Positions 18,587 to 39,414 of a DNA stretch of 39,414 bases are shown piece by piece (the stretch's first letter is position 1; every line of letters begins with the position of its first letter). Made by a program: the position numbers and the translations under genes. Source of the stretch: a virus; the IMG/VR virus record IMGVR_UViG_3300039191_000190, positions 1 through 39,414 of that record. One strand, written 5' to 3'. Under the pieces are notes generated by a model, which had not been told where the DNA came from, did not search any database, and saw only the letters and a list, made by a program, of their open reading frames with translations.

Positions 18587-21500
18587 TGGCAATCACAATC
18601 ACAAATCAAGGAGACATCGAGGAAGTCGAGAAGGATGAACTAATCTCAACTGAACCAATCAATGATGGGGTGATGACTCCTAATAACCCGATTGAGGTAA
18701 CACCAGTGAATCCACTTGAGTTAAAAGCTCAAGACATGGGGAATCCACTAGAGCAAGAGCTTGTCCGTCCTGCTATCGAGGCAGAGCAGGAATATCAGAA
18801 CCAAGTTTTTGAGACTCGCGCTAAGAATAGACAGACTACTGATCGCATTTCATTGGATATTTCTAAATGGAAAACTGACAAGGCTGATGATGTAAAGGAA
18901 ATGATGCTTGTAAAGGGTGTGATTAAGACTGAGTTTGATCGCGATTCTGATTCTGTTTCAACGTATCAATTTAACCGGGCGATGGCTTCAAAGTCTCTAT
19001 TTGGTGAAGAGATCAACGATGATAAGCAATTTGTCGCAAAGCTAAAAGAACGCGCGGAGGTTCAGCGCGATACGGATGATTATCGGAAAGCGTTTGCTAA
19101 AAGTTCTATTCTGAAAGTGCTAACACTAGGGAAATTTTCTGATGTGAGTGAAGAGACGGCTTCGCACGTAGGTAGTAAATACGTTCCAGACTCACGGACT
19201 CGCAAAGTATTTGATAGGATTCAAAGTAATATCGAGAAAGAGTTGAGTTCAAAGGGTGTTGAAATGTTGGCTGGAGTATTTGAAGGATTCAAAGCTAAGG
19301 ACCGCGCTGGATTCATGGATGACACTAGATCGATGTGGAAGGTCCTTGATAAAGATCAACGTGATTATGCCGCGAGAACACTAGGGTTTATGGCCCGCAA
19401 TCTTAAAAGCCAAAAAGAGAGGGATGATTTCTTCGAGTATCTAGGAGAGTCGATGCGTGGAGTGGCTAGTATTGGGCGTTCCGTTGGTAATGTTATTGAA
19501 AGATCAGATGCTTTTTTAAGGAATAATAGCTCTGATGCAAAAAGAGAAGAACATACAAGGATTGTTGCTAATATTGAGCAACAATATGAAAGAGGTCACA
19601 TGTCAAAAGAGACTTATGATAAACGAATGGAGCGAGCGGGTAGGGCTAGTCGTGAGATTTACTCTCTGAAAGAAGATGCTGAAAATGCTCAAACAAAAGT
19701 TCTTGAAAATGATTTTGTTGAACAAGTAATTAGAAGTTACGAGAATGAATATGATCCAACTGAGTTCTACACTAAAGATAAAACTGTTTTTGGTGTAATC
19801 GAGCGAGGTTTACATTCTGCTCCAGCGGCTATGTCAACGACTTTTGTAGCAATGATACCATACGCTGGTTTGCCTTTGGTTAGCGGTATTATGTTTGATC
19901 AAGCAAAAAACGATCTCAATCAATCAATGTTTGATCAAGGCATTAATCTTGAGGAATCTACTAAGGCGACAGATAAATATTCATTCATGATCATGATTCC
20001 TAACACCTTCTTTGAGAGGGCTGGAGCTAAAGGATTCACTGGTGGGAAATTTAGCCCGATAAGCTGGGTAGAGAAAAAAGCGTTTAAGAAAATTTCTAGT
20101 AACTTATTCACAAAGGCTCTAATCCGTAATGCGGGTGAGACTGTGACTGAATTGACTCAGGGAATATGGGAGAACGTAGTTAAAGACTACGCTGCAAGCA
20201 TGGATGAAAGATTCCCTGATATAAAATTCTCAGGAGAAGGTGGCGTGTTTGATGGGTATGCTTACACTATTTTAGAAACTGCGGTGGCGGTAGCTCCTAT
20301 GTCTGGAATATCTGCGGGATTGGTTAAGACTAGCGAGATCGCTGGGATCGTTGAGCAGATGGATGAACTAGTTATCGAGGCTTCTGGTTACGATCTTGAG
20401 GCAGCGAGAGAGCTAGTGAAAGCTAAAGGCACACTAGGCGAAGATGCGGCGGCACAAGCGTTTAGGAAGAACTATGATCCTAATTCTGAGAAATCTAGGC
20501 TGGCAGTTGATAGCTTAAATATCAAAATTAATGAACACAAAGTAGCTGTTGATGAGTTAACAAACTTAGGGATGCTTCCAAGTTTTAAGATGAACGAGGA
20601 AGGAAAGGTTGAAGTTTATGACGAATATGAAGGTGAATTGATAGGAACTGCCGACAACCACCTGGAGGCGCAGCCTATTATTGAGAACTATTTAAAAGAG
20701 AAAGAGGTATCTGCGGATAATTTTACAGATTACGTGATGTCGATGCTTGGATCTGCTGATGAGCAAAGGCGTGAAAAGAAGTCACAAGGATATTCTGAGC
20801 GATACAATCTGAGACTAGGTGATAAGCTGACAGTTGAAGACGCGATTAAGTCTATGCCTCAACATGAGGCGCGCATTTTAGAAGAAGTAGCTTTATATGA
20901 AAAACAACATGGCGGTAACGGTAAAATCACACTGGCGGTCAATGGCTTCTCACAGACTGAATACGAGGACAACCAAAGAATAGTCACGAATAACCTGTTT
21001 GCGGGTTCAAGCCCGCTGACGGTCATTCATGAGTCCACTCACGGGGCATTTAGACGAGCTCTCGATAGCGGGGCGATGAATCAGGAAGAAGCAATTAGGT
21101 TTTTCCGCATGGCCGATGGTCAGATCGGAGATAAAGGCCAGAAGTTTCTCAAGTCCACCGAGGATAGTGATGTTTCATTTACTGAACTAGATGAGGCAGT
21201 TTCTGAGTTCATGGAATCTGAAGTATTGAGAACCCGGCAAGGCGTGGCTTCTACATTCACCAGCGTATTGCGCGAAGGCTTGAAGGATGCGGTCACAAAT
21301 GATGCTGACGCTAAGATCATCGGCAAGTTCAAGGCATTTGCTAAAGCGGTCGGAGCATCGTTTAGAGTGGCGCTCACAAGGGCTGCTTACATGAACAGGG
21401 CGATCAAGAAGGGTTTAATCGATGAAAAGGATGTCGATGAGTTCAGAGCGAAGCTACAACAGACCAGCGGCCAGGAAGAATTTAATAGAGAGGTCGAGCA

Positions 21501-24500
21501 GGAATATGCTGAACTGACGAAGGACCAAGAGCAAGCATTGAAAGATTTTCAGCCTACTGAGGATGTGCCGTTTAGTCTTGGTTGGAATCCTATGGAGTAT
21601 CAGCGAGTAATGCCCAGAGATTTATTTAATGAGGCTAAGACACTTTCAATGCATAAGAAGCTGGTGGAAGATTTCAATCAAGGCAAACTTCCAGAGGGTT
21701 TTGAAATCCAGTTAAATGAAGAGAGTTTAGATATTGGTTTATCAGAGGATGGAGAATTATTCTTGCAAGATTTTGAAATATCATTTGATGGTGAACCGAT
21801 AACAGTCACAGTCCCTTATAACTCAGGAAAAGAGACAAAATACCCGATGGAGTTCACAGCAGAGGGAATAGATGTTTGGGGTGTTCCAGTGTATGAGCAA
21901 GATGGAACATTTGACAGTGAGTTTGTGGAAGCATTTGGGGATAACTTGTCCACACCAGATGAATCAATTAATCTTAATGGAACATGGGATGAAGCTAATA
22001 ACTTCATGACTCAGTTAGGTATTGTTGGTTTAATGGAGGTTGACGGGAAACTATCAGATGATTTTAAGTTTGATCTTAATGAACTGGAGAAAGGTTTTCA
22101 ACTGGAAGATGATGGCGGTTCTTATCGATCAGAAAATCTTGATGCCTCCATCAATGGCGAAGTAGTTGATTTCTATATGAGCTTCAGTGATGGTAAGCTA
22201 AAGTTTTCTCATAAAGATCAAGTAGGCGATGTTCTGAGTGGATCCAGAGGGATGAGTGAGGAATTTAAGTCATTAGTAGGTAGAGACACAAGCGCCAGCT
22301 TCTCTATCTCCCCAGAGCAAGACGCAAGCTACATGCAAGCGGTAGAGTCTGGAGACGTAGCTGCCCAGCAAGCGATGGTGGACGAGGCGGCTAAGGCGGC
22401 AGGGTTTGATTCTGATTTTTACCATGGGACTGATGATGAAATAAATACGTTTAACCCAGAAAAAGGTAGTCGTGGTAATAGGAATGAAAGTGGGTTTGTT
22501 GGATTTGTTACAAAAAAAGAAGATGCTGCATCGGTTTACGGACAAGCAATAAAGGTAGCTATTAAGCATGATAACACACTCAGCCTTGATGATGCTGATT
22601 TAGCTATTAAAGAATACGCAAAGGATAATGGATACAACCAAGAGCGGGAAGATGATGGGGATGGATCTTCGTGGAGATTACCATCTGTTAATGACCCTGA
22701 CGATTCATTTGAGGGTGAATACTCTGATGAATTAGTTCCTTCATGGGAGTTTAATGAAGCCCTCATAGCTAAATCTAAGGAAGTGGGAGCTGATTCATTT
22801 GTAACATGGGACGGATCGGGGGATGCCCTTACATTAGCGTTCCTTAACCCAAACCAGATCAAAAGCGCAGAGCCAGTAACCTACGACGCATCAGGCGAGG
22901 TGATACCACTAAGTCAGAGGTTCGATCAAGGGAAGGATTCTATCAGTTTCTCTATCGGTATGGTGGAAGCTAGGACAGAAGGCGGGGCGCAATGGAGTCA
23001 ACCGATACTAAGGATTTCACAGAAGGAAATGCTAGCGCAAGGCGCTGACGGTCATTTAAGGCAAGCGTTCAAGGCTCAGATCCCACTTGATAAGATTATG
23101 GGGCATGAACCTACTCCGGCAAACTACTACGAAGAAGATGGTAAGTATAAAGCGGGTAAAGAAATCACGCAACCTATCGAAGTTTTATGGGACAAAGATC
23201 AAGGTGGATTCATGCTCTACGGTGGAAATCACAGGGTCGCGCAAGCAGAGGCTAATGGTGATAAAATGATCACGGCTTTTGTTGAAGTGCCTATGAATAA
23301 ACCATCATTCTCACTATCAGAAACTAACATTGCTGATGAATTGATCAGAAACGCCACTGGAAGAGGTAAGTCGCCAGAAGCCCGCGTTATGATCATGAAT
23401 GATCTAGCCGCGCGTGTGGAGGCTCTCAAGCGTGATAAAGACATCATGAAGCGTGCATTTGGTAAAGACTACGTTCAGAAAGCTAATCCAGATAAACGTA
23501 CCAAGAAATCTATACAGAAAGAATCAGCGATGATCGAAGCGCTCAGGCGTGAAGAACTAGAGGATCAAGTTTATGCTGAGAACTATATCCTGGAGGCAGA
23601 AGAATTGACTAAGCTAAAAGAACAGCCTATCCACGAATATTTATCGAGTCCATCTAGCCCATTGAAAGGTCAACTCATGTCAGTTTCTGAGGCGATGAAG
23701 CAAGGCAAGTATGATCCTAAAAATCATGGTGATTATAATGGGGCTGGTGGCGCATCTAAAACTCTATTTGGTGGGACGTTGATGCCAGATCAAGCAGCTC
23801 AAGAGCTGGCTGATCTGGGGCTGATTAAAGATCCTTACGTTGATACAATGTGGGAGGCTCTGGAGAAAGAGCAATTTTCGGTTACTGATCGTAAAGAGGA
23901 TCTAGCCAAAGCAAAGAAAAAGCTAAAGGATGCAAGGGCATTAGCTAAGTCTGAAGCTAAAGAGTGGGCTGATGCCACGATAAAAGAGCAAAACAAGATT
24001 CATAATCCACTAGCGACCGTGAGGCGATCACTAGCGATGCTAGATGCTATCCTTATGGCTTTACCTGTTGAGCTCAGGGGCAAGGTCGGTGGGCATACTC
24101 AGCTATCTAAGATCGGGACTAACGAGAAGCGGTTAGAGTTTTTTGAGAAAAGATTAGAGAAAGCTGATGTTGTTATTGAGCAGTGGCAGAAAAAAGAAAT
24201 AACAAAGCAGATTGATAAATTATTCTCAAGGGCTGGGTTAGATGTCACGGCTAAGGGCGTGAAGATGAAGAAGACTGGCAAAGGTGTTCCCAAATCTAGC
24301 CTTCCTGCTGAGTTCACAGATAGAGCCGTGGTGATAGCGAAATTATCCAAGCTCTCACAAGAAGAAGTCGATACTAGGATTACTAATATTGCTGAAGCTC
24401 TCGATAAGACTGATAAGCAAGTTGAGGTTGATTTGATAGGATTTGGAAATATCGCTGGTCAAAGCGCGGCTTCACTCACTAGTTTCTTTGAGAATCTGAA

Positions 24501-26766
24501 CAGCGTTGTTAAAACTGGTAAGACCATCAAGGAGTTCAAGGATGCTGAATTTAAAGAGCAACTTGACGAGATCAAGGCGATAATGAATAAAGATATTACT
24601 GGAGGAGCTGGTAGGATGCTATCATCTAAAGCGAAACTAAAAGCTAAAAAACAAAAGAAATTCAAGGCGTTATCAGCATTCCATAGAAAAAACGTGGCAT
24701 GGGAATGGCTTATTAATGGTCTAGCTAGAGAGAATAAAGATGCTGGGACACTGGATAGCGAGACTCATAATAGACTTGCTAGAATGGTTCATGTTGCTAC
24801 TCACTCAGAGAAAAGAATGAATGCTGGATTACAGGAAGAATACCGAGAATTTCTTTCATACATTTTCGGTGGTCTTAAAGGCACGAAACTTACTGATGCT
24901 ATTTCTGAAATGATGGAAGAGGTTCAGACTAAAGTGATGCGCGTAGATTATTTAGGTAATGGAGCGTTCTCTATGAAGAAAGCTAAAGCATCAAACATTC
25001 AAGCGGTCATCGAAGGTAGAGCCGATTCTGAAAAATTAGGATTTAACAGCGCTGAAATAGAAAATGCTAAGATCGAATATGAAAGACTAAAAGAGAAAGC
25101 AGGAGGCAAATTAGATGGTAGCCGGATAATCAACTACGAGTCTCCAAATGTCGGTCAATCTGATGCGTTAATATTATCTCAAAGCCAGGCTATTTATTTG
25201 ACAATGATGTTCAAGCAGGATGGCATTAGAGAGTCAATGATCCACGAAGGATATACTGAAGAGACAATGAAGCAGATGGAAGATTTCTTATCTGATGAAT
25301 CTCTACAGGTTCGGGACTGGATGGCGCAACAATATAAAGACAATCACGCTGTAGTGAATGAAGTGTTCAAGGAACAGAATGGAGTGAGTTTGCCTATCAT
25401 TGATAATTACTCTCCAGTTCGTAGATTGACTGATGGTTCAGCAAATGATTTAGAGATCGATTCTCATGGTGGCACAGCGATGTCAACGAATCCTAATTTC
25501 ACGATCAGCCGGGTTAAAAACTTTGCTGAAGTAGATCAGAAAGCAGATGCTTTATCAGTCTATATGCAACACATGGTTCAAACTAATCACTATGTTACCT
25601 GGGCGAAGCCAACAAAAATACTTCGATCAGTTTTCTCTGATAAGACAGTGAAGAAAAACATCGAGGACTATGCTGGAGGATCACTTCTTTCAATTATTAA
25701 TGAGCGGGTTCAGTGGTTTGCTGATGGTGGTAACAGAAAGGCAATGCATATGGCTACTCTGGATAAAATGCGTGCTGCTCACACCTACGGTTCACTAGCA
25801 TTTAACTGGCAAGTCGGGGTGAAGCAGTTGACATCGTTGCCAGCATTTGCTTTCGATATGGGATTTGGAGATTTCGCAAAATACCAAACTCAGTTCTTGA
25901 AGAATCCTATCGATAACGCTAAGGCTATGATGGGGACTGACTACGTTAGAACGCGATTCAAAGAAGGTTATGAGCGCGATGTGATGGAAGGTCTAAAACA
26001 AGAAGGCGGTAAGATCCTTAAAGGATTACAGATGGGGATGATGTTCGGTAAGGTAGGTGACATCATGCCAGTGATAATAGGTGGTTGGATGGCTAAGCAG
26101 AGATCATACGATAGGGCTATCGCTGAAGGTTTGAGTGAGTCCGAGGCTGAACCTAGATCGATTATTGATTTTGAAATGACAGTTGATCGAGCACAGCAAG
26201 CAGGTGACTTGAAAGATTTATCAAGTTTCCAGGGTGGAGGATCATTCTTCAAGTTATTCACGATGTATAAGACATCACCGAGGCAGTATTACGCGAACGT
26301 TTATGAATCTATGCTGGATGCTAAGGCAGGGAAGACCGGAGCGGGTAAAGAATTTGCGAGGCGCTTGATGATTGGGCAAATAGTTCTACCGCTTACTTTC
26401 CAGTTTGTCAGTGATCTACTCAAGATGCCTTTCGAGGATGATGATGAAGAATTAGAGGGATCAGATTACCTTCGCGCGATGCTCATGGGGCCGCTCAATG
26501 GTCTATTCATTGCTGGTGATTTTGCTGAGTTAACTTTCTCAGGAATTGCAGATGCTAAGATTTGGTCTGAAACTTTCACGATTATGGATGGCGCGACTAA
26601 AGCATCTTATGGTATGCAAGATTTCTGGGATGGAAACTTTGTTGAGGGAATAGATAATGTTGCGCGAGGTGTTGGTAAGACTCTACCTGGAGGCTTTACC
26701 TATTACGAAATCGCTCGTAAACAAAGTGATCAATACTTCGGGAAAGTTGAATTTGATAAGGACTAA
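18586..26766 (+). CDS. giant polyvalent internal virion protein with protease, ART-like and ParB-like domains
   Basis: A 2726-residue protein that occupies the place of T7 gp16, probably ejected with the DNA. Visible modules: a helical N-terminus; a hydrophobic segment at about 405-440; a zinc-metalloprotease motif HESTH at 815-819; an ART-like domain opening with YHGT at 1279-1282 and closing near 'NPNQIKSAEPVTYD' and 'IPLSQRF'; a ParB/sulfiredoxin-like segment ending in 'LYGGNHRVAQAEANG' (GGNHR at 1546-1550); and a long helical C-terminus with 'FKLFTMYKTSPRQYYANVYE'. FSLG/FSIS/FSIG/FSLS boundary motifs recur at 996, 1239, 1455 and 1575. This is the domain style of phage polyvalent proteins; enzymatic activities are inferred, not shown. 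Confidence 0.85.
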   Translation: MAITITNQGDIEEVEKDELISTEPINDGVMTPNNPIEVTPVNPLELKAQDMGNPLEQELVRPAIEAEQEYQNQVFETRAKNRQTTDRISLDISKWKTDKADDVKEMMLVKGVIKTEFDRDSDSVSTYQFNRAMASKSLFGEEINDDKQFVAKLKERAEVQRDTDDYRKAFAKSSILKVLTLGKFSDVSEETASHVGSKYVPDSRTRKVFDRIQSNIEKELSSKGVEMLAGVFEGFKAKDRAGFMDDTRSMWKVLDKDQRDYAARTLGFMARNLKSQKERDDFFEYLGESMRGVASIGRSVGNVIERSDAFLRNNSSDAKREEHTRIVANIEQQYERGHMSKETYDKRMERAGRASREIYSLKEDAENAQTKVLENDFVEQVIRSYENEYDPTEFYTKDKTVFGVIERGLHSAPAAMSTTFVAMIPYAGLPLVSGIMFDQAKNDLNQSMFDQGINLEESTKATDKYSFMIMIPNTFFERAGAKGFTGGKFSPISWVEKKAFKKISSNLFTKALIRNAGETVTELTQGIWENVVKDYAASMDERFPDIKFSGEGGVFDGYAYTILETAVAVAPMSGISAGLVKTSEIAGIVEQMDELVIEASGYDLEAARELVKAKGTLGEDAAAQAFRKNYDPNSEKSRLAVDSLNIKINEHKVAVDELTNLGMLPSFKMNEEGKVEVYDEYEGELIGTADNHLEAQPIIENYLKEKEVSADNFTDYVMSMLGSADEQRREKKSQGYSERYNLRLGDKLTVEDAIKSMPQHEARILEEVALYEKQHGGNGKITLAVNGFSQTEYEDNQRIVTNNLFAGSSPLTVIHESTHGAFRRALDSGAMNQEEAIRFFRMADGQIGDKGQKFLKSTEDSDVSFTELDEAVSEFMESEVLRTRQGVASTFTSVLREGLKDAVTNDADAKIIGKFKAFAKAVGASFRVALTRAAYMNRAIKKGLIDEKDVDEFRAKLQQTSGQEEFNREVEQEYAELTKDQEQALKDFQPTEDVPFSLGWNPMEYQRVMPRDLFNEAKTLSMHKKLVEDFNQGKLPEGFEIQLNEESLDIGLSEDGELFLQDFEISFDGEPITVTVPYNSGKETKYPMEFTAEGIDVWGVPVYEQDGTFDSEFVEAFGDNLSTPDESINLNGTWDEANNFMTQLGIVGLMEVDGKLSDDFKFDLNELEKGFQLEDDGGSYRSENLDASINGEVVDFYMSFSDGKLKFSHKDQVGDVLSGSRGMSEEFKSLVGRDTSASFSISPEQDASYMQAVESGDVAAQQAMVDEAAKAAGFDSDFYHGTDDEINTFNPEKGSRGNRNESGFVGFVTKKEDAASVYGQAIKVAIKHDNTLSLDDADLAIKEYAKDNGYNQEREDDGDGSSWRLPSVNDPDDSFEGEYSDELVPSWEFNEALIAKSKEVGADSFVTWDGSGDALTLAFLNPNQIKSAEPVTYDASGEVIPLSQRFDQGKDSISFSIGMVEARTEGGAQWSQPILRISQKEMLAQGADGHLRQAFKAQIPLDKIMGHEPTPANYYEEDGKYKAGKEITQPIEVLWDKDQGGFMLYGGNHRVAQAEANGDKMITAFVEVPMNKPSFSLSETNIADELIRNATGRGKSPEARVMIMNDLAARVEALKRDKDIMKRAFGKDYVQKANPDKRTKKSIQKESAMIEALRREELEDQVYAENYILEAEELTKLKEQPIHEYLSSPSSPLKGQLMSVSEAMKQGKYDPKNHGDYNGAGGASKTLFGGTLMPDQAAQELADLGLIKDPYVDTMWEALEKEQFSVTDRKEDLAKAKKKLKDARALAKSEAKEWADATIKEQNKIHNPLATVRRSLAMLDAILMALPVELRGKVGGHTQLSKIGTNEKRLEFFEKRLEKADVVIEQWQKKEITKQIDKLFSRAGLDVTAKGVKMKKTGKGVPKSSLPAEFTDRAVVIAKLSKLSQEEVDTRITNIAEALDKTDKQVEVDLIGFGNIAGQSAASLTSFFENLNSVVKTGKTIKEFKDAEFKEQLDEIKAIMNKDITGGAGRMLSSKAKLKAKKQKKFKALSAFHRKNVAWEWLINGLARENKDAGTLDSETHNRLARMVHVATHSEKRMNAGLQEEYREFLSYIFGGLKGTKLTDAISEMMEEVQTKVMRVDYLGNGAFSMKKAKASNIQAVIEGRADSEKLGFNSAEIENAKIEYERLKEKAGGKLDGSRIINYESPNVGQSDALILSQSQAIYLTMMFKQDGIRESMIHEGYTEETMKQMEDFLSDESLQVRDWMAQQYKDNHAVVNEVFKEQNGVSLPIIDNYSPVRRLTDGSANDLEIDSHGGTAMSTNPNFTISRVKNFAEVDQKADALSVYMQHMVQTNHYVTWAKPTKILRSVFSDKTVKKNIEDYAGGSLLSIINERVQWFADGGNRKAMHMATLDKMRAAHTYGSLAFNWQVGVKQLTSLPAFAFDMGFGDFAKYQTQFLKNPIDNAKAMMGTDYVRTRFKEGYERDVMEGLKQEGGKILKGLQMGMMFGKVGDIMPVIIGGWMAKQRSYDRAIAEGLSESEAEPRSIIDFEMTVDRAQQAGDLKDLSSFQGGGSFFKLFTMYKTSPRQYYANVYESMLDAKAGKTGAGKEFARRLMIGQIVLPLTFQFVSDLLKMPFEDDDEELEGSDYLRAMLMGPLNGLFIAGDFAELTFSGIADAKIWSETFTIMDGATKASYGMQDFWDGNFVEGIDNVARGVGKTLPGGFTYYEIARKQSDQYFGKVEFDKD

Positions 26767-32782: not shown

Positions 32783-32941
32783 ATGAAAGTCCTCGACACG
32801 CACATGGGGAGCGGTAGCATAGCCATAGCAGCGCATTACGCTGGAATCCATCTAACGGCTTGCGAACTCGATGAGGACTACTTTGACGCGGGGTGCGCTA
32901 GAGTCCACAGGGAAACATCACAAACAACACTGAAACTATGA
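32783..32941 (+). CDS. orphan DNA methyltransferase motif-I fragment, 52 aa
   Basis: It reads MKVLDTHMGSGSIAIAAHYA and goes on to 'LTACELDEDYFDAGCARVHRE'. This is the SAM-binding end of a DNA (N6-adenine/N4-cytosine) methyltransferase: 'vLDp.mGSGs.aiA....g....a.ElD.eYf.....r' (motif I and the following acidic strand). The catalytic DPPY part and all other domains are absent here, and the upstream 250 codons are a different protein. It overlaps the next gene by four bases (ATGA), so it looks expressed. It is a remnant, or a small SAM-binding protein in its own right. Methyltransferase activity is not expected from it alone. Confidence 0.65.
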   Translation: MKVLDTHMGSGSIAIAAHYAGIHLTACELDEDYFDAGCARVHRETSQTTLKL

Positions 32942-34813: not shown

Positions 34814-34866
34814 ATGACTCAAAACGTAAATACACCCAGAGAATCGGATACTGCGATTTGTTCGCC
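34814..34866 (+). repeat. attC right half-site at the 5' edge of the array
   Basis: It has the A-rich spacer, 'GATACTGCGATTTG' and the R' core GTTCGCC (34860-34866), but the preceding bases are the end of a phage gene with no TAACGTC arm or L'' element. It is therefore a half-site, not a full attC. Either the array lost its first cassette by deletion, or the phage carries a fixed docking sequence equivalent to attI. Confidence 0.6.
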
Positions 34867-35050
34867 TTTTGTTGTTGGTGATCCCGTTGACATCTCTCGC
34901 TGGAATCAAGCGACGAATAAAGGGAGCGGCATCGGTGACACTGGAATAGTCGTGAGAGTGTGGCGAGATAAATGCTCGTCTGGAATAATGATAAAAGTAA
35001 GAGGCAAAGGGACTGTAGAAATTGACTCTCAATGGGCATCCCACCTTTAG
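34814..35050 (+). CDS. cassette C1 gene: SH3-like small protein
   Basis: A 78-residue protein whose ATG lies in the half-site; the first 16 codons come from the attC-like sequence and the rest from cassette C1 (34861-35099). 'VGDPVDISRWNQATNKGSG', then 'IGDTGIVVRVWRDKCSSGIM' and 'KGTVEIDSQWASHL' is a repeated beta-strand pattern like small SH3-like barrels ('vGD.V........G.iG..G.V..v....i.v...g'). The stop codon (TAG) ends at the first base of R''. Function unknown. Confidence 0.6.
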   Translation: MTQNVNTPRESDTAICSPFVVGDPVDISRWNQATNKGSGIGDTGIVVRVWRDKCSSGIMIKVRGKGTVEIDSQWASHL

Positions 35051-35105
35051 CCTAACGCCAAAGCATAGGTGCGCCGTAGGCGTTAGGTAATCTGATTTGT
35101 TCGTT
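35050..35105 (+). repeat. attC1 (short form, 56 bp)
   Basis: R'' GCCTAAC at 35050-35056, a hairpin core CGCC-GTA-GGCG and R' GTTCGTT at 35099-35105. This R'' matches its own cassette start (GTTCGCC) only 5/7, the poorest in the array. It instead matches an inner GTTAGGT at 35081-35087 at 6/7. The variable spacer is almost absent, unlike attC2 and most later sites. Confidence 0.75.
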
Positions 35106-35195
35106 TTGCATTTAATTAGAGAAAAGTGAATAAAGATTGAAATAAAGGTTGCGTTAAATCAAACAGCGTGCATAATAGGGACATGACAAACCAAA
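35062..35195 (+). repeat. 134-bp duplicated segment, copy 1 (attC right part plus cassette promoter)
   Basis: It aligns without gaps to 35890-36023, with about 20 differences counted by eye (about 85% identity). It spans the attC right arm, the crossover point and the promoter up to the first codons of the cassette gene (ATGACAAACCAAA). The differences cluster at the inner core-like bases and near the -35 boxes. Confidence 0.85.
35149..35182 (+). promoter_or_regulatory. cassette C2 promoter (leaderless geometry)
   Basis: TTGCGT at 35149-35154, a 16-base spacer and CATAAT at 35171-35176; ATG follows six bases later at 35183. The predicted transcript starts at or beside the ATG. The AGGGAC between the two is too close to the ATG to act as a ribosome binding site. 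It is an own-promoter cassette, as expected for toxin-antitoxin cassettes. Confidence 0.55.
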
Positions 35196-35359
35196 AGAGA
35201 GAGATCAAGTTCAGTGTAACAAAAGCAGGTCAAATTCAAGCTTTTGAATATAAAAGGAATCAAGCCCGTTGGATGAGATTAAAACTAAGTGACGCTGAAA
35301 CAGCAGTGGCTAACGGAGAAGCTAAAGTATATGAGCCAAGAGCAAACAACATCTACTAG
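35183..35359 (+). CDS. cassette C2 gene 1: small basic protein (toxin-like position)
   Basis: A 58-residue protein from the ATG at 35183; a GTG 15 bases earlier in frame overlaps the promoter and is less likely. It begins MTNQKREIKFSVTKAGQIQA and ends 'EAKVYEPRANNIY'. The start 'MTNQ' is shared with the C4 gene. Mixed strand-helix pattern; no toxin family recognised. It overlaps the next gene by 29 bases, so the two are translated as a pair. The toxin role is an inference from layout. Confidence 0.5.
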   Translation: MTNQKREIKFSVTKAGQIQAFEYKRNQARWMRLKLSDAETAVANGEAKVYEPRANNIY

Positions 35360-35528
35360 AGGAGGGTCCCGCAAAGGGGCGGGGCGAAAGCCTCGCATCG
35401 GGGCGAAGGTCAAGAAGACTATAGGACTAGAGCAAGATGTCTGGGATCTGATAGACTCAGCAAGAGCCAAGGATGGACTCAGTAGACCTAAACAGATTGA
35501 GAAATGGGCTAGAGGTGGAGATCTTTAA
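35331..35528 (+). CDS. cassette C2 gene 2: RHH-type DNA-binding protein (antitoxin-like)
   Basis: A 65-residue protein from the ATG at 35331, in another frame overlapping gene 1. It has 'GGSRKGAGRKPRIGAKVKKTIGLEQDVWDLIDSA' (quoted by parts): the 'G.R.GAGRKP' arm followed by a beta strand and helix, ending in a second helix ('LSRPKQIEKWAR'), as in ribbon-helix-helix proteins. RHH proteins often autoregulate toxin-antitoxin operons, so binding to the promoter at 35149 is likely. The stop (TAA) ends on the first base of R''. Confidence 0.6.
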   Translation: MSQEQTTSTRGGSRKGAGRKPRIGAKVKKTIGLEQDVWDLIDSARAKDGLSRPKQIEKWARGGDL

Positions 35529-35643
35529 ACGAACGTCTAAGAACACCGCCACCACCCACAGAGGCGGATAAACCAAACAACCAACTAATAACCTAACAAC
35601 CCAGAAGACACGCCGTGGTGGCCGAGTGCTTCGTTTGTTATCC
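35528..35643 (+). repeat. attC2
   Basis: R'' AACGAAC (35528-35534), matching the start of its own cassette GTTCGTT (35099) at 7/7; R' GTTATCC (35637-35643). The left inner arm 'CCGCCACCAC' pairs with the right 'GTGGTGGCC'. Total 116 bp with an A-rich spacer lacking an in-frame ATG for the next gene. Confidence 0.88.
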
Positions 35644-35652
35644 ACTATAATT

Positions 35653-35883
35653 ATGAACATTAAAGAACTTAAAGAAAAAATAAAAGACTTACCAGACGAA
35701 ATGACCGTAGCACAGCATCATCCAGATGATTGGTCTGCTGGTGAAATATGTCATATAGCCACAGTTATAGTCGATATCAGGGAATTAAACTTACTGACAC
35801 ACAGGTGGGAATTAGTGAAAAAGAGAAGTCTTTTTATTGGCGATAAATGCAAGGAGACAAAAGAGATATTGCTCATAGGATAA
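35653..35883 (+). CDS. cassette C3 gene: 76-aa hypothetical
   Basis: I use the ATG at 35653, 16 bases into cassette C3, rather than an upstream GTG in the attC. It reads MNIKELKEKIKDLPDEMTVA, then 'HHPDDWSAGEICHIATVIVD' and a basic end. 'i..LPddm.V' openings are common in small phage and cassette proteins. The TAA lies inside R'' (GGATAAC). Cassette size 290 bp; no promoter seen inside. Confidence 0.65.
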   Translation: MNIKELKEKIKDLPDEMTVAQHHPDDWSAGEICHIATVIVDIRELNLLTHRWELVKKRSLFIGDKCKETKEILLIG

Positions 35884-35933
35884 CGTCTCAGCATAGGTGC
35901 GCCGTAGGCGTTATCTGCTCTGATTTGTTCGTT
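35878..35933 (+). repeat. attC3 (short form, 56 bp)
   Basis: R'' GGATAAC (35878-35884) matches its own cassette start GTTATCC (35637) at 7/7; R' GTTCGTT (35927-35933). Nearly identical to attC1 outside the R'' and inner core-like bases. The inner GTTATCT again follows R'' (6/7). Confidence 0.85.
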
Positions 35934-36023
35934 TTGGATTTAATTTGAGAAAAGTGAAGAAACATTGAAATAGTGCTAGACATAAATCAAATCAAGTGCA
36001 TAATAAGGACATGACAAACCAAA
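35890..36023 (+). repeat. 134-bp duplicated segment, copy 2
   Basis: Partner of 35062-35195, same length with no gaps. It carries the attC3 right part, the crossover at 35927/35928 and the C4 promoter. Because the similarity crosses a cassette boundary, it is not explained by homology of one cassette alone. Confidence 0.85.
35977..36010 (+). promoter_or_regulatory. cassette C4 promoter (leaderless geometry)
   Basis: TAGACA at 35977-35982, a 16-base spacer and CATAAT at 35999-36004, with the ATG at 36011 six bases after the -10. Same design as the C2 promoter. Confidence 0.55.
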
Positions 36024-36214
36024 CACAACAACTAATCGGTAAGGAAATATTCAAAATTGAATCAACAAAAAAGGCGAGAGTAAAAAGCGTTGAAGCTGGA
36101 TGGTTGAAAGGCATGTTTAATGTTAATTTTGAAGATGGAACTACTGCTGGGTTTAAGGACGAGGATTTAGCATCATTGCTCCTTGACGGAACAACTAAAT
36201 CTTTAGGGGTATAA
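36011..36214 (+). CDS. cassette C4 gene 1: 67-aa small protein (toxin-like position)
   Basis: ATG at 36011, right after the promoter; an in-frame GTG at 35996 lies in the promoter. It reads MTNQTQQLIGKEIFKIESTK and 'AGWLKGMFNVNFEDGTTAGF', a beta-type domain with 'G.F.V.F.dG....f...dl'. It shares only the first four residues with the C2 gene, so the shared part is the promoter cassette start, not the protein. It overlaps the next gene by one base (TAATG). Confidence 0.55.
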   Translation: MTNQTQQLIGKEIFKIESTKKARVKSVEAGWLKGMFNVNFEDGTTAGFKDEDLASLLLDGTTKSLGV

Positions 36215-36387
36215 TGAAAGGCGGGAAACGCAAGGGAGCGGGGCGCAAGCCTCGCCAAACTGCCAGGAAGCAAGTTAATCTCCGCCTTGAACCTGAGACT
36301 AAGGAAAAGCTAGATCGGATCTGTGAAGCGGAGGACATAAGCCAAACCGAGAGAGTCACGCGCTGGGTGGACGATCACCAACTTTAA
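36214..36387 (+). CDS. cassette C4 gene 2: RHH-type DNA-binding protein (antitoxin-like)
   Basis: A 57-residue protein reading MKGGKRKGAGRKPRQTARKQ, then 'VNLRLEPETKEKLDRICEAE' and 'SQTERVTRWVDDH'. It has a basic arm with RKGAGRKP, a beta strand and two helices in RHH order, closely resembling the design of the C2 partner. TAATG coupling to gene 1; the stop TAA ends on the first base of R''. A second copy of the same two-gene plan with the same promoter supports a selfish toxin-antitoxin pair that stabilises the array; toxicity is untested. Confidence 0.65.
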   Translation: MKGGKRKGAGRKPRQTARKQVNLRLEPETKEKLDRICEAEDISQTERVTRWVDDHQL

Positions 36388-36509
36388 ACGAACGTCCTCA
36401 ATCTAGCCGCCACCACCTCAGAGACTGCCACCGAAACCATGAAACTAAACACAACCAAAAATCTAACTATACGCCAGCCGTGGTGGTCGGCTGCGATGTG
36501 TTGTTATAC
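36387..36509 (+). repeat. attC4
   Basis: R'' AACGAAC (36387-36393) matches its own cassette start GTTCGTT (35927) at 7/7; R' GTTATAC (36503-36509). Left 'TAGCCGCCACCAC' pairs with right 'GTGGTGGTCGGCTG'. An ATG at 36439 in the spacer is in frame with the next gene. Confidence 0.88.
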
Positions 36510-36516
36510 ATCTATT

Positions 36517-37026
36517 ATGAGAGCATTACCAACGATATACAAAGGCAAAGAATACAGAAGCAGCACAGAAGCAAGATGGCACGCATATTTTGATCTGATA
36601 GGGTTTGAAGTTGAGCATGAGCATGATGCTTATTGTATAAATGGTAGGAATTATCTACCTGACTTCCAAAGTAAAAAAGGGGCTTTTTGGGGTTATGCAG
36701 ATAAATCAAAACAAATACCATGGTTTATTGAGGTCAAAGGGTGTATTGATGATGCTTTAGATAATTATCAGTTAATGCAGGAGTTTAGTGAGGAAACTCA
36801 ATCACTCGTGCAAATAGTTTGGGGTAAACCTTCTTGTAAACCTTTCCCCACATGGATCAAAGGTGAAGAGGTGTGTCCATCGTCCCTTACTTATTACGGT
36901 TTCACGCAAAAAGGATGGGATCAGCCTCAGTTTAATCCTGATGAGTATGAGAGTGATGGTGATTCTAATGTGCTTGATATACTTAGGTGCGCCAGAAGAA
37001 CCAGAAAAGGTGAACTTTTAGTATAA
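36517..37026 (+). CDS. cassette C5 gene: PD-(D/E)XK-like nuclease
   Basis: A 169-residue protein from the ATG at 36517; an in-frame ATG in the upstream attC (36439) would add 26 residues. It has 'YRSSTEARWHAYFDLIGFEV' (Glu18), 'RNYLPDF' (Asp49) and 'WFIEVKG' (Glu72-x-Lys74), the order of phage PD-(D/E)XK nuclease-like proteins ('fRS..EArWa.ff...G....YEp......YlPDF........EvKg'). All expected acidic and Lys residues are present. The stop lies inside R''. Substrate unknown; it is the only clear enzyme in the array. Confidence 0.7.
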   Translation: MRALPTIYKGKEYRSSTEARWHAYFDLIGFEVEHEHDAYCINGRNYLPDFQSKKGAFWGYADKSKQIPWFIEVKGCIDDALDNYQLMQEFSEETQSLVQIVWGKPSCKPFPTWIKGEEVCPSSLTYYGFTQKGWDQPQFNPDEYESDGDSNVLDILRCARRTRKGELLV

Positions 37027-37146
37027 CGCCCTCAAGTGACCGCCACGACTAGACACCCCAAGACAATAAACCACAACCGATACAAACTAACCTAACAACC
37101 TTGAGCGACCTGCGCCGTAGTGGTCGAGTCCACTGCGTTGTTCGCC
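37021..37146 (+). repeat. attC5
   Basis: R'' GTATAAC (37021-37027) matches its own cassette start GTTATAC (36503) at 7/7; R' GTTCGCC (37140-37146). Left 'GACCGCCAC' pairs with right 'GTGGTCGAG' imperfectly. 126 bp. Confidence 0.88.
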
Positions 37147-37179
37147 TTTTTATTAACCAACTATTATTAACCAACTATT

Positions 37180-37380
37180 ATGAAAGCAAAAGTAACATTA
37201 ACATTACCTAACGGATTCAAGCCGCTAGAAAACAACAGAATGCACCTATCAGGTGAAAATAAGAAATCAGTGAGCGAATTACTAAAGGCTCTTGGAGAAG
37301 TTAAAGATGAGTGTAACAGGGAAGCCAATCGAGAAGGTTTCGCTCTTAACGATTGTGAAATGGAAGTCGAGTTCCTTTAG
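37180..37380 (+). CDS. cassette C6 gene: 66-aa hypothetical
   Basis: ATG at 37180 after a perfect 14-bp tandem duplication (37152-37165 and 37166-37179) that ends at the ATG. It reads MKAKVTLTLPNGFKPLENNR and ends 'NREGFALNDCEMEVEFL'. The end resembles that of the C7 protein ('KRGIVLNDEGLLIT'), so the two may be distant relatives. The stop TAG ends on the first base of R''. Confidence 0.6.
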   Translation: MKAKVTLTLPNGFKPLENNRMHLSGENKKSVSELLKALGEVKDECNREANREGFALNDCEMEVEFL

Positions 37381-37469
37381 GCGAACGTCTTAGGATAGCC
37401 ACGCCGAACGGAAGACACAGAACCAAAAACTAGGGCAACAGAGGGGTTGGATAATCCGACTTGATATGC
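37380..37469 (+). repeat. attC6 with an unusual GAT core
   Basis: R'' GGCGAAC (37380-37386) matches its own cassette start GTTCGCC (37140) at 7/7. The right core is GATATGC (37463-37469) instead of GTT-type. The right arm is weaker ('GGTTGGATAATCCGACTT') and the spacer is short (90 bp total). The next gene's ATG lies inside this core. Confidence 0.75.
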
Positions 37470-37705
37470 CACGAATAACAAACGATATGATAACGATAAA
37501 AATAGAGGAAAAGATACCATACTCAGATGAATCTGTGATTCTTGAACAATCAATAGATGACGAATCCTACTACAATTTGAGGAACAAAGGGGAAGTGCTC
37601 GCAGATATGATCTTCCGAATGAAGAGTCAAGTAAACGATGGGATTGATAAAGAAATGCAGAAACGAGGAATCGTTTTGAATGATGAGGGATTATTAATCA
37701 CTTAG
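37466..37705 (+). CDS. cassette C7 gene: 79-aa hypothetical
   Basis: ATG at 37466, inside the R' core of attC6; a second in-frame ATG follows at 37487. It reads MPRITNDMITIKIEEKIPYS and ends 'QKRGIVLNDEGLLIT'. Helical centre 'GEVLADMIFRMKSQVNDGID'. Acidic. The stop ends directly before R''. No family recognised; weak similarity at the C-terminus to the C6 protein. Confidence 0.6.
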   Translation: MPRITNDMITIKIEEKIPYSDESVILEQSIDDESYYNLRNKGEVLADMIFRMKSQVNDGIDKEMQKRGIVLNDEGLLIT

Positions 37706-37817
37706 GTATATCGTCTCAAGACAGCCACCAGCGCAAGACATGGATGAATCAACAAACAAATAACCACGAATAAACGCTGCTACGCCCTAGCTGGTCGGCT
37801 GATCTGCGTTGTTAGAT
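37706..37817 (+). repeat. attC7
   Basis: R'' GTATATC (37706-37712) pairs with its own cassette start GATATGC (37463) at 6/7, so the unusual ATC/GAT is kept on both sides. R' GTTAGAT (37811-37817). Left 'ACAGCCACCAGC' pairs with right 'GCTGGTCGGCTG'. Typical spacer. Confidence 0.85.
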
Positions 37818-37850
37818 TTTTAACATGCTGGCGAGCTACGCAATAAACCT

Positions 37851-38102
37851 ATGAGTAGACGAAGCTTTAGAATTAAAGGGAATAATGATGAGGTCAAACC
37901 TTGTCCCGAATGTGGAAACAATACCGATTTTGTATGTAGATCTGAGCAAGTTGCGGATGATGGATGCGAGGTCTGGGCGGAATGTAAATGCGGTCACAAC
38001 CCGTCTGCCCCTATGGATCGCATGGAGAGTGTAATGGGTGGGTGTGGTGACAACAACTGTTATGACTCCCTGAGTATCTGGAATGACTCTATAACATCTT
38101 AA
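37851..38102 (+). CDS. cassette C8 gene: Lar-like zinc-ribbon protein
   Basis: An 83-residue protein with 'KPCPECGNNTDFVCRSEQVA' (Cys18, Cys21) and 'VWAECKCGHNPS' (Cys45, Cys47), ending 'SLSIWNDS'. This is the pattern of Lar-type restriction-alleviation proteins ('KPCPfCG......v.C..Cg.......Ai..WN.'). The paired cysteines suggest a zinc-bound fold. Lar of the Rac prophage relieves type I restriction, so anti-restriction is a reasonable guess. A nine-codon open frame (37825-37854) overlaps the start by ATGA. Confidence 0.6.
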   Translation: MSRRSFRIKGNNDEVKPCPECGNNTDFVCRSEQVADDGCEVWAECKCGHNPSAPMDRMESVMGGCGDNNCYDSLSIWNDSITS

Positions 38103-38107
38103 CTTTA

Positions 38108-38219
38108 ATCTAACGTCTAAAGATAGCCACTGGTGCAACGCTCCGCCTAACCTAAGAGCGACTAACTAAACACAAACTAAAACACGCCCTAGCCAGTTGG
38201 CTACTCTGATTTGTTAGGG
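38108..38219 (+). repeat. attC8
   Basis: R'' ATCTAAC (38108-38114) matches its own cassette start GTTAGAT (37811) at 7/7; R' GTTAGGG (38213-38219). Left 'GATAGCCACTGG' pairs with right 'CCAGTTGGCTAC'. It is the cleanest consensus site in the array. Confidence 0.9.
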
Positions 38220-38236
38220 TTTAACTAGAAAATATT

Positions 38237-38377
38237 ATGAAAAGTAAACCAGACATCGAACAAGAAAAAGAGCAGTTTATTATAAAATGGTGTAGCGACC
38301 GAGCATTAGATGCAAAGGATGAAGTTAATAGAAGCAATGCGTTAGACGCATGGAATGTGAAAGTTCTATTCTTTTAG
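38237..38377 (+). CDS. cassette C9 gene: 46-aa hypothetical
   Basis: ATG at 38237, reading MKSKPDIEQEKEQFIIKWCS and ending 'WNVKVLFF'. A small charged helical protein. Its TAG ends on the first base of R''. The cassette is 269 bp and nothing else fits in it. No family recognised. Confidence 0.55.
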   Translation: MKSKPDIEQEKEQFIIKWCSDRALDAKDEVNRSNALDAWNVKVLFF

Positions 38378-38488
38378 CCTAACGTCATAAGTGAGCCGCC
38401 TCTGACAAATATAAACTAACCTAAAAATATGGAACAAAAAATAAACACTACTACGCCCAAAGAGGTCGGCTCCGCTGATTTGTTATAC
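38377..38488 (+). repeat. attC9
   Basis: R'' GCCTAAC (38377-38383) pairs with its own cassette start GTTAGGG (38213) at 6/7; R' GTTATAC (38482-38488). The left 'GAGCCGCCTCTG' pairs with right 'AGAGGTCGGCTC'. The spacer carries ATG at 38429 in frame with the next gene. Confidence 0.88.
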
Positions 38489-38656
38489 CGTTGCGAGAAA
38501 AAAGCATTGAAGTTATTTTACGGTGAGAGGGGAGACCTGAAAGTATGGGAGTGCCGCGCTGAAATAGAGAAAGAGTTCGGCAAGGATGTAGTAAACGAAA
38601 TGATGCGTAATGGGATAGGTGGTAATAAAGGGAAAAATTGGAATCCTACATCTTAG
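38429..38656 (+). CDS. cassette C10 gene with attC-encoded N-terminus
   Basis: A 75-residue protein. The ATG at 38429 lies in the spacer of attC9; the first 18 codons (MEQKINTTTPKEVGSADL) come from the upstream cassette's attC. The cassette-derived part is 'LYRCEKKALKLFYGERGDLK' onward, ending 'NGIGGNKGKNWNPTS'. The only later in-frame ATG would leave about 15 residues, so the attC start (or a TTG at the junction) is needed. The stop ends on the first base of R''. No family recognised. Confidence 0.6.
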   Translation: MEQKINTTTPKEVGSADLLYRCEKKALKLFYGERGDLKVWECRAEIEKEFGKDVVNEMMRNGIGGNKGKNWNPTS

Positions 38657-38777
38657 TATAACGTCCAAGCATAGCCACCGACCAACAATAACATATGAAA
38701 ACACCAACAGAAAACTTACCTCCAGAAAACTCCGTGGAAGCCAGCCCAGGGCGGTTGGCTACTGCGGCTTGTTATGT
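38656..38777 (+). repeat. attC10
   Basis: R'' GTATAAC (38656-38662) matches its own cassette start GTTATAC (38482) at 7/7; R' GTTATGT (38771-38777). Left 'CATAGCCACCGACC' pairs with right 'GGGCGGTTGGCTAC'. The spacer carries ATG at 38695. Confidence 0.88.
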
Positions 38778-38958
38778 TTGGAAACCTATTGATGCAGATG
38801 CAAAAAAAGGAACCGTGCTTTTGGGTAGAGCAGGCAGGGAGCCTATTATGGACTTTTGGCTAGAATATGGGAATTGGTGCAGGTGGCGACACAGTGACAG
38901 CTCTGGATGCGGTAACTTCCCTCCCACGCACTATATGCCAATCAAAGAATTACTTTAA
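38695..38958 (+). CDS. cassette C11 gene: DUF551-like protein with attC-encoded N-terminus
   Basis: An 87-residue protein. The first 25 residues come from attC10, reading MKTPTENLPPENSVEASPGR onward; the junction codon is Cys26. The cassette part is 'WKPIDADAKKGTVLLGRAGR', ending 'NFPPTHYMPIKELL'. A start with 'W.pi.dapk.g..vll' and an end with 'PTHwmPl' is the pattern of DUF551, a small domain frequent in phage accessory regions. Function of DUF551 is unknown. The stop (TAA) ends on the first base of R''. Confidence 0.65.
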   Translation: MKTPTENLPPENSVEASPGRLATAACYVWKPIDADAKKGTVLLGRAGREPIMDFWLEYGNWCRWRHSDSSGCGNFPPTHYMPIKELL

Positions 38959-39078
38959 TATAACGTCAAAGCATAACGCCGCATCGAGTGGCATAGAATA
39001 GAAAAAAATATGGGAAATAAAGAAGAAATTAAAACAGGCGAACACGCCGTAGCGGTCGATTACTGCGATTTGTTAGAT
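38958..39078 (+). repeat. attC11
   Basis: R'' ATATAAC (38958-38964) pairs with its own cassette start GTTATGT (38771) at 6/7; R' GTTAGAT (39072-39078). Left 'CATAACGCCGC' and right 'GTAGCGGTCGAT' pair imperfectly. The spacer carries ATG at 39010. Confidence 0.85.
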
Positions 39079-39285
39079 TGTCCATTTTGCGGTAAGATCG
39101 AGGCGGAAGATTATGATTTCCCCGCGACTATTTACAACGGATCAGATCAATTTACAGATAGGTATGAGCGCGGAAATCCACCTTATTACATTCAGTGTGA
39201 GCATTGCTTAGGGAGAGGGCCAACGGCTGACAACCCTGTAGATGCTTCAAAATGGTGGAATGACCGCAAGACATGTAAATCTTAA
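39010..39285 (+). CDS. cassette C12 gene: Lar-like zinc protein with attC-encoded N-terminus
   Basis: A 91-residue protein; the first 21 residues (MGNKEEIKTGEHAVAVDYCD plus Leu) come from attC11. The cassette part has 'CPFCG' (Cys24, Cys27), 'YYIQCEHCLGRGPTADNPVD' (Cys63, Cys66) and 'ASKWWNDR', the Lar restriction-alleviation pattern ('CPFCGg...v.C..CgarGp......Ai..WN.R'), more complete than in C8. The first cysteine pair starts two codons after the junction, so the cassette still encodes the whole domain. Anti-restriction is inferred from family resemblance. Confidence 0.7.
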   Translation: MGNKEEIKTGEHAVAVDYCDLLDCPFCGKIEAEDYDFPATIYNGSDQFTDRYERGNPPYYIQCEHCLGRGPTADNPVDASKWWNDRKTCKS

Positions 39286-39412
39286 TCTAACGTCTAAAGA
39301 TAGCTACCCCGAAAACCAAACAACTAAATAGAAACGAAATAATATGGAAAACGAAAATACTACTATTAAACCCTCCGACTCCGAGGGGGTTAGATACTCT
39401 GATTTGTTAGCT
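39285..39412 (+). repeat. attC12
   Basis: R'' ATCTAAC (39285-39291) matches its own cassette start GTTAGAT (39072) at 7/7; R' GTTAGCT (39406-39412). The left inner arm 'GATAGCTACCCC' pairs with right 'GGGGGTTAGATAC' imperfectly. The spacer contains an ATG at 39344. Confidence 0.85.
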
Positions 39413-39414
39413 TT
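39344..39414 (+). CDS. start of cassette C13 gene (partial, attC-encoded N-terminus)
   Basis: ATG at 39344 in the attC12 spacer gives MENENTTIKPSDSEGVRYSD and then Leu-Leu-Ala up to the window end, open at the 3' edge. The crossover lies after base 39406, so nearly all visible codons belong to attC12. If the window is circular, this frame continues from base 1 and stops at 65-67, giving a protein of about 45 residues. Confidence 0.45.
   Translation, partial: MENENTTIKPSDSEGVRYSDLLA

Follow-up and report, generated by a model that had tools for sequence, protein, structure and literature searches.

Can a gene cassette whose core triplet is not GTT have been a mobile cassette, or does an altered core point to decay, copying or error? 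The question is raised by cassette C7 of an integron-type array in a virus genome. This cassette begins with GATATGC, and its own R'' box ends in the complementary triplet ATC. The change must be real, the two boxes must have had occasion to face each other, and an integrase must be able to accept the result. We address these points in turn and then weigh the histories that could have produced the pair.

An attC array in a podovirus genome

The window is the whole of a metagenomic virus record, 39,414 bp in length. A gene set like that of the podovirus epsilon15 spans position 99 to about 33.6 kb of the record and includes a large terminase, a portal, a head-tail adaptor, a major head protein, a tail protein sharing about 29% identity with its epsilon15 counterpart, and a small terminase recognized by a weak match only. 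Further genes specify a RecT-like annealing protein, a RecE-like exonuclease, RusA, and a replication initiation protein. Downstream of these structural, recombination, and replication genes lie 12 attC sites, which belong to a run of small cassettes that all point in the + direction:

34860 to 39414, + strand: row of at least 12 integron-type cassettes, forming an integrase-free cluster of attC sites (CALIN), recognized from its cores and own-complementary R'' boxes, the attC alignment, and no PF00589 match
34860, 35099, 35637, 35927, 36503, 37140, 37463, 37811, 38213, 38482, 38771, 39072, and 39406, + strand: starts of the 13 R' cores
35050, 35528, 35878, 36387, 37021, 37380, 37706, 38108, 38377, 38656, 38958, and 39285, + strand: starts of the 12 R'' boxes

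The R' box starts with GTT in 12 of 13 instances and the R'' box ends with AAC in 11 of 12, the exceptions being the two boxes of C7. Across the array, the R' and R'' of one cassette are complementary at 6.6 of 7 positions on average, compared to 4.25 of 7 for the neighboring boxes that are juxtaposed at cassette borders, so the rule that each box matches its own partner is real in this array.

No tyrosine recombinase (PF00589) was matched anywhere in the 39,414-bp record, and the array is therefore classed as a CALIN; an IntI gene with attI beside the array, as in a complete integron, was not found within the record. The end of the record falls inside the array, and an integrase may lie beyond it. 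CALINs are known in phage genomes, where clusters are defined by at least two attC sites and methyltransferase cargo has been reported (Qi et al. 2023, PMC9892861). The array described here, with its 12 sites, resembles them in combining same-direction attC sites and small genes in a tailed-phage genome that has no integrase gene. Both may carry antirestriction cargo, methyltransferases in the phage CALINs and Lar-like proteins here. The present array differs in having at least 12 cassettes, one of them with a compensated GAT core. Five of six phage-borne attC sites tested recombined with attI1 through IntI1, demonstrating that attC sites carried by phages can work (PMC9892861). Given its phage-like cargo (Lar-like proteins in C8 and C12, an endonuclease-like protein in C5), the array is likely phage DNA rather than host DNA flanking a prophage.

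Both boxes of C7 carry a reciprocal core change

The features of C7 and of the two attC sites at its borders are as follows:

37463 to 37810, + strand: cassette C7, 348 bp, from the GAT core to the base before the C8 core
37463 to 37469, + strand: C7 R' box, GATATGC, with GAT in place of GTT (from the sequence and the attC alignment)
37466 to 37705, + strand: C7 open reading frame (ORF), 79 amino acids, with its start codon within the R' box and its stop codon immediately 5' of R''
37706 to 37712, + strand: C7 R'' box, GTATATC, with ATC in place of AAC and 6 of 7 positions complementary to its own R'
37706 to 37817, + strand: attC7, made up of the C7 R'' box, the stem, and the C8 R' box (69.3 bits by the array's own model; folding)
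37380 to 37469, + strand: attC6, made up of the C6 R'' box (GGCGAAC), the stem, and the GAT-containing C7 R' box (44.6 bits; folding)

C7 is organized as gene cassettes are, with a core at 37463 and the next at 37811, a gene at 37466 to 37705, a 3' attC at 37706 to 37810, and complementary R' and R'' boxes (6/7); only its triplets, GAT and ATC, depart from GTT and AAC. The 79-amino-acid protein matched no known family and has no detectable relationship to the protein of C6.

The sequence-only reading had placed the C7 start at GATATGC and its R'' at GTATATC, with a reciprocal ATC and a single departure from perfect complementarity. An alignment of all 12 attC sites confirms each of these points. 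GATATGC falls exactly in the GTT column and GTATATC exactly in the R'' column ending in AAC, and a true C7 core located elsewhere was rejected by the same alignment. The lone mismatch lies outside the core and is T.G on the top strand and C.A on the bottom, recombining strand. The probability that a random heptamer from the array pairs with C7 R' at 6 or more of 7 positions is about 0.0009. However, C7 R'' also pairs at 6 of 7 positions with the R' boxes of C5 and C10 (GTTATAC), so the heptamer score is not unique and it is the reciprocal triplet that carries the weight.

Apart from its core, attC7 has the appearance of a sound site. Folded as the bottom strand with DNA parameters, as were all sites, it has an L stem, an unpaired spacer, and an extrahelical G, which is a feature of functional attC sites. 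It shares with the attC sites of Vibrio-type sedentary chromosomal integrons the R''/L''/L'/R' layout, the complementarity of a cassette's own R' and R'', and the bottom-strand extrahelical G. The array's own model (R1) is built from primary sequence, the RNAalifold consensus of the 12 sites having 0 base pairs, and by its score attC7 ranks fourth best in the array, with a well-preserved stem. As attC7 is among the best-preserved sites, its altered core does not reflect general decay. By contrast with attC7, attC6 at the left border of C7 is poor and has a weak stem in folding.

A sequencing or assembly error would be the simplest source of an odd triplet in a metagenomic virus record. Two separate errors would need to be reciprocal, however, and the C7 ORF and attC are otherwise intact, which makes this the most improbable of the explanations that we considered.

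The two boxes meet only in an excised circle

In the array, the R' and R'' boxes of C7 are not neighbors but lie 240 bp apart; C7 R' sits opposite the R'' of C6, and C7 R'' sits opposite the R' of C8. The triplet pair is consequently broken at both borders of C7, and no other site of the array shows this. Only in an excised circle, or after a tandem duplication, do the C7 boxes join into one attC. For the circle, folding predicts that the core triplet is paired with a probability of about 0.60, compared to 0.43 for a GTT/AAC version, whereas a change in either triplet alone cannot pair. Because the core pair is broken at both borders of C7, a feature that the sequence-only reading had not pointed out, the altered core is coherent only as a circle.

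This geometry bears on the main rival to a history of movement, templated palindrome correction, which could generate the same pattern without any use by an integrase. One arm of the palindrome would have mutated and the other would have been rewritten by template switching (quasipalindrome correction) or by phage-recombination annealing, so that the covariation would record repair and not selection by an integrase. The R' and R'' inverted repeats can fold together, the phage has a RecT-like annealing protein and a RecE-like exonuclease of its own, and one mutation followed by one repair event would suffice. However, a neighboring position within the same seven bases was left uncorrected, and in the array the gene and 240 bp separate the boxes. 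With this spacing, correction would be easiest in the circle, so that templated copying again implies excision. Single-sided core changes are also not seen corrected in the arrays surveyed below. We regard templated copying as possible, although rather unlikely.

The sequence-only reading had held that the covariation means that the cassette moved with this core or that its two ends were cocopied. What stands is the alternative as such, a shared circular history or copying between the arms; that C7 moved is a conclusion drawn from a single case.

Compensated cores are not seen in surveyed Vibrio-type integrons

We surveyed 867 cassettes from chromosomal arrays beside integron integrases in Vibrio and related genera, all within one bacterial order, with a finder that is blind to the triplet. 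The R' triplet was GTT in 845 of 867 cassettes and the R'' triplet was AAC in 850 of 867 (about 97 to 98%). Most of the exceptions can be put down to a shifted register (CGT in place of C|GTT), to weak hits, or to an inserted element. For example, a GCT core found five times in one Vibrio-group array was rejected as a cassette core; it belongs to a 1.3-kb element with a transposase-like ORF that was inserted five times exactly at the attC core (L103-L104, genome G185). Clear one-sided core changes in these arrays stay uncompensated, and a matching double change, i.e., a compensated pair other than GTT/AAC, occurs in 0 of the 867 surveyed cassettes. C7 thus differs from Vibrio-type attC sites, which keep GTT/AAC and offer no compensated alternative triplet.

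One convincing GAT core was present in the survey, with the very heptamer GATATGC, in a worn distal part of its array; its own R'' is ATATAAC. This uncompensated core reads as plain decay, which, judged by the two sequences, C7 does not resemble. A loose search by structure alone, for complementary heptamers carrying other triplets, returned no excess of GAT (two hits), with most other altered triplets at 1 to 34 hits and TAT and TGT at more; background dominates this search, and we therefore left it out of the evidence.

Hand screening leaves true deviations in roughly 0.5% of R' triplets and 0.7% of R'' triplets. If the two sides were independent, a matching double change would be expected in about 4 per million cassettes, and in well under 1 in 10,000 arrays of 12 cassettes. 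This survey-based estimate weighs against two independent mutations that match by coincidence in an array that no longer moves. Some features suit such a history: the record has no integrase, C1 and attC6 look degraded, and GTATATC is one base off GTATAAC, the R'' of C5 and C10. Every other triplet in the array is intact, however, and we consider coincidence unlikely.

Searches for relatives of C7 and its array

Neither a relative of the array nor one of C7 emerged from protein and pattern scans of viral contigs, phages, and plasmids; these scans also gave no second location for C7 and no GTT ancestor of it. The array's own attC model likewise found no relative in 398 Pseudomonadota genomes and nothing in four distant phage relatives. 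The single hit of the pattern scan of genome contigs (L001) was rejected, having no attC around it. With no relative found, there is no second copy to show movement of C7.

The missing GTT ancestor would fit a cassette that was formed with a GAT core at the outset, both arms deriving from one GAT-containing heptamer, in which case reciprocity would be immediate. However, the alignment places the stem and spacers of attC7 in the same family as those of all other sites in the array, and the site therefore descends from a GTT/AAC site. An original GAT core is accordingly very unlikely.

Integrase tolerance and a model for C7

Provided that the first base matches, one partner can reportedly carry a different second or third triplet base while recombination stays near wild-type levels (work attributed to Frumerie et al. 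2010). A GAT-core circle meeting a GTT attI or attC is this case of a one-partner change. The relaxed-triplet attC and attI1 mutants were engineered, whereas C7 would be a natural example in which a single attC has both its boxes altered.

Constraint on the second triplet base is only lax, IntI1 needing little beyond GNT (PMC10127599, PMC3518468), and IntI1 can cleave G|A within GAT (PMC10127599). The C7 core resembles the secondary GNT sites described in these studies in having G first, T third, and a free second base, and G|A cleavage has been reported for them; they are accidental double-stranded targets, whereas in C7 both arms of a true attC are altered. These observations qualify the earlier claim that GTT is close to invariant. 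It holds as a description of natural sites, about 97% of the 867 R' triplets being GTT, but not as an absolute demand of the enzyme, given its GNT tolerance and the G|A cut in GAT. As the enzyme tolerates GNT, the GAT core counts as an uncommon natural site and does not breach the mechanism. A paired core change is rare yet consistent with known enzyme behavior.

The explanation that we prefer, giving it roughly an even chance, is that C7 is a genuine cassette that underwent a coordinated triplet change, functioned as a GAT-core circle, and was moved by an integrase acting in trans. Under this model, GTT would have become GAT in R' and AAC would have become ATC in R''. In the free circle, the two boxes would form the base of the bottom-strand hairpin, in which the altered triplet would pair normally. 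An integron integrase, probably supplied in trans by the host as the record has none, would make its bottom-strand cut at the T|C step of 5'-GCATAT|C-3'. This is feasible because a match to the partner is needed at the first triplet base only, the second being under loose constraint. Once inserted, C7 would have its boxes opposite those of other cassettes, with the core pair broken at both borders, and its entry is therefore predicted to be easier than its exit. We thus infer that C7 moved with its GAT core and is at present partly locked into the array. The model draws on the exact reciprocity of GAT and ATC in boxes that meet only in the circle; weighing against it are its dependence on a single case, the one mismatch outside the core, the poor folding of attC6, and the lack of an integrase in the record.

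A broader reading, which we consider doubtful, takes C7 as the representative of a natural class of cassettes in which the triplet is altered but compensated within the cassette, and which are served by an integrase of relaxed or different specificity. Since the boxes of such cassettes match each other and not their neighbors, they would enter readily and be hard to excise, which would allow phages to retain a gene within such an array.

Returning to the single cassette moved in trans, the case of C7 suggests that integrons are able to move altered-core cassettes. A natural compensated GAT core would show that what evolution preserves is less the exact triplet than the pairing of the two boxes in the circle, and it would give the biochemistry of relaxed triplets a place in nature. 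The GTT triplet is the sequence on which almost every attC finder and model depends, and a natural GAT core would suggest that cassettes with other cores are being missed.

Other features of the array and the phage genome

The cargo of the array resembles phage accessory genes. C12 encodes a Lar restriction-alleviation protein, the C8 protein has a weak Lar-like match, and C5 encodes a phrog_21138/endonuclease-like protein. Elsewhere in the genome, a 52-amino-acid ORF at 32783 to 32941 (MKVLDTHMGSGSIAIAAHYAGIHLTACELDEDYFDAGCARVHRET...) resembles by eye a short DNA methyltransferase fragment, and a 2,726-amino-acid phage protein at 18586 to 26766 has a weak match, below the curated cutoff, to PF18760 (ADP-ribosyltransferase in polyvalent proteins).

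The recognizable attC at the left border (34833 to 34868) consists of the R'-side half only and lies inside the C1 ORF; the R' and R'' of C1 match at 5 of 7 positions, and the left-border site is possibly a worn first site. C1 and C3 terminate in near-identical, very short attC sites (56 nt), and a 148-nt repeat with 83% identity (35048 to 35195 and 35876 to 36023) comprises the short attC and the start of the next cassette.

Genes and recombination sites also overlap. In 7 of 12 cassettes (main ORF, offset 0), plus C1, the stop codon shares its final base with the start of R'', a one-base overlap of gene and recombination site. The ORFs starting at 34814, 38429, 38695, and 39010 begin at an ATG within the attC of the preceding cassette, 46 to 76 bases upstream of the core, and read in frame across it. 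In C12 the Lar-like domain starts very close to the core, so that the beginning of this protein appears to come from the attC.
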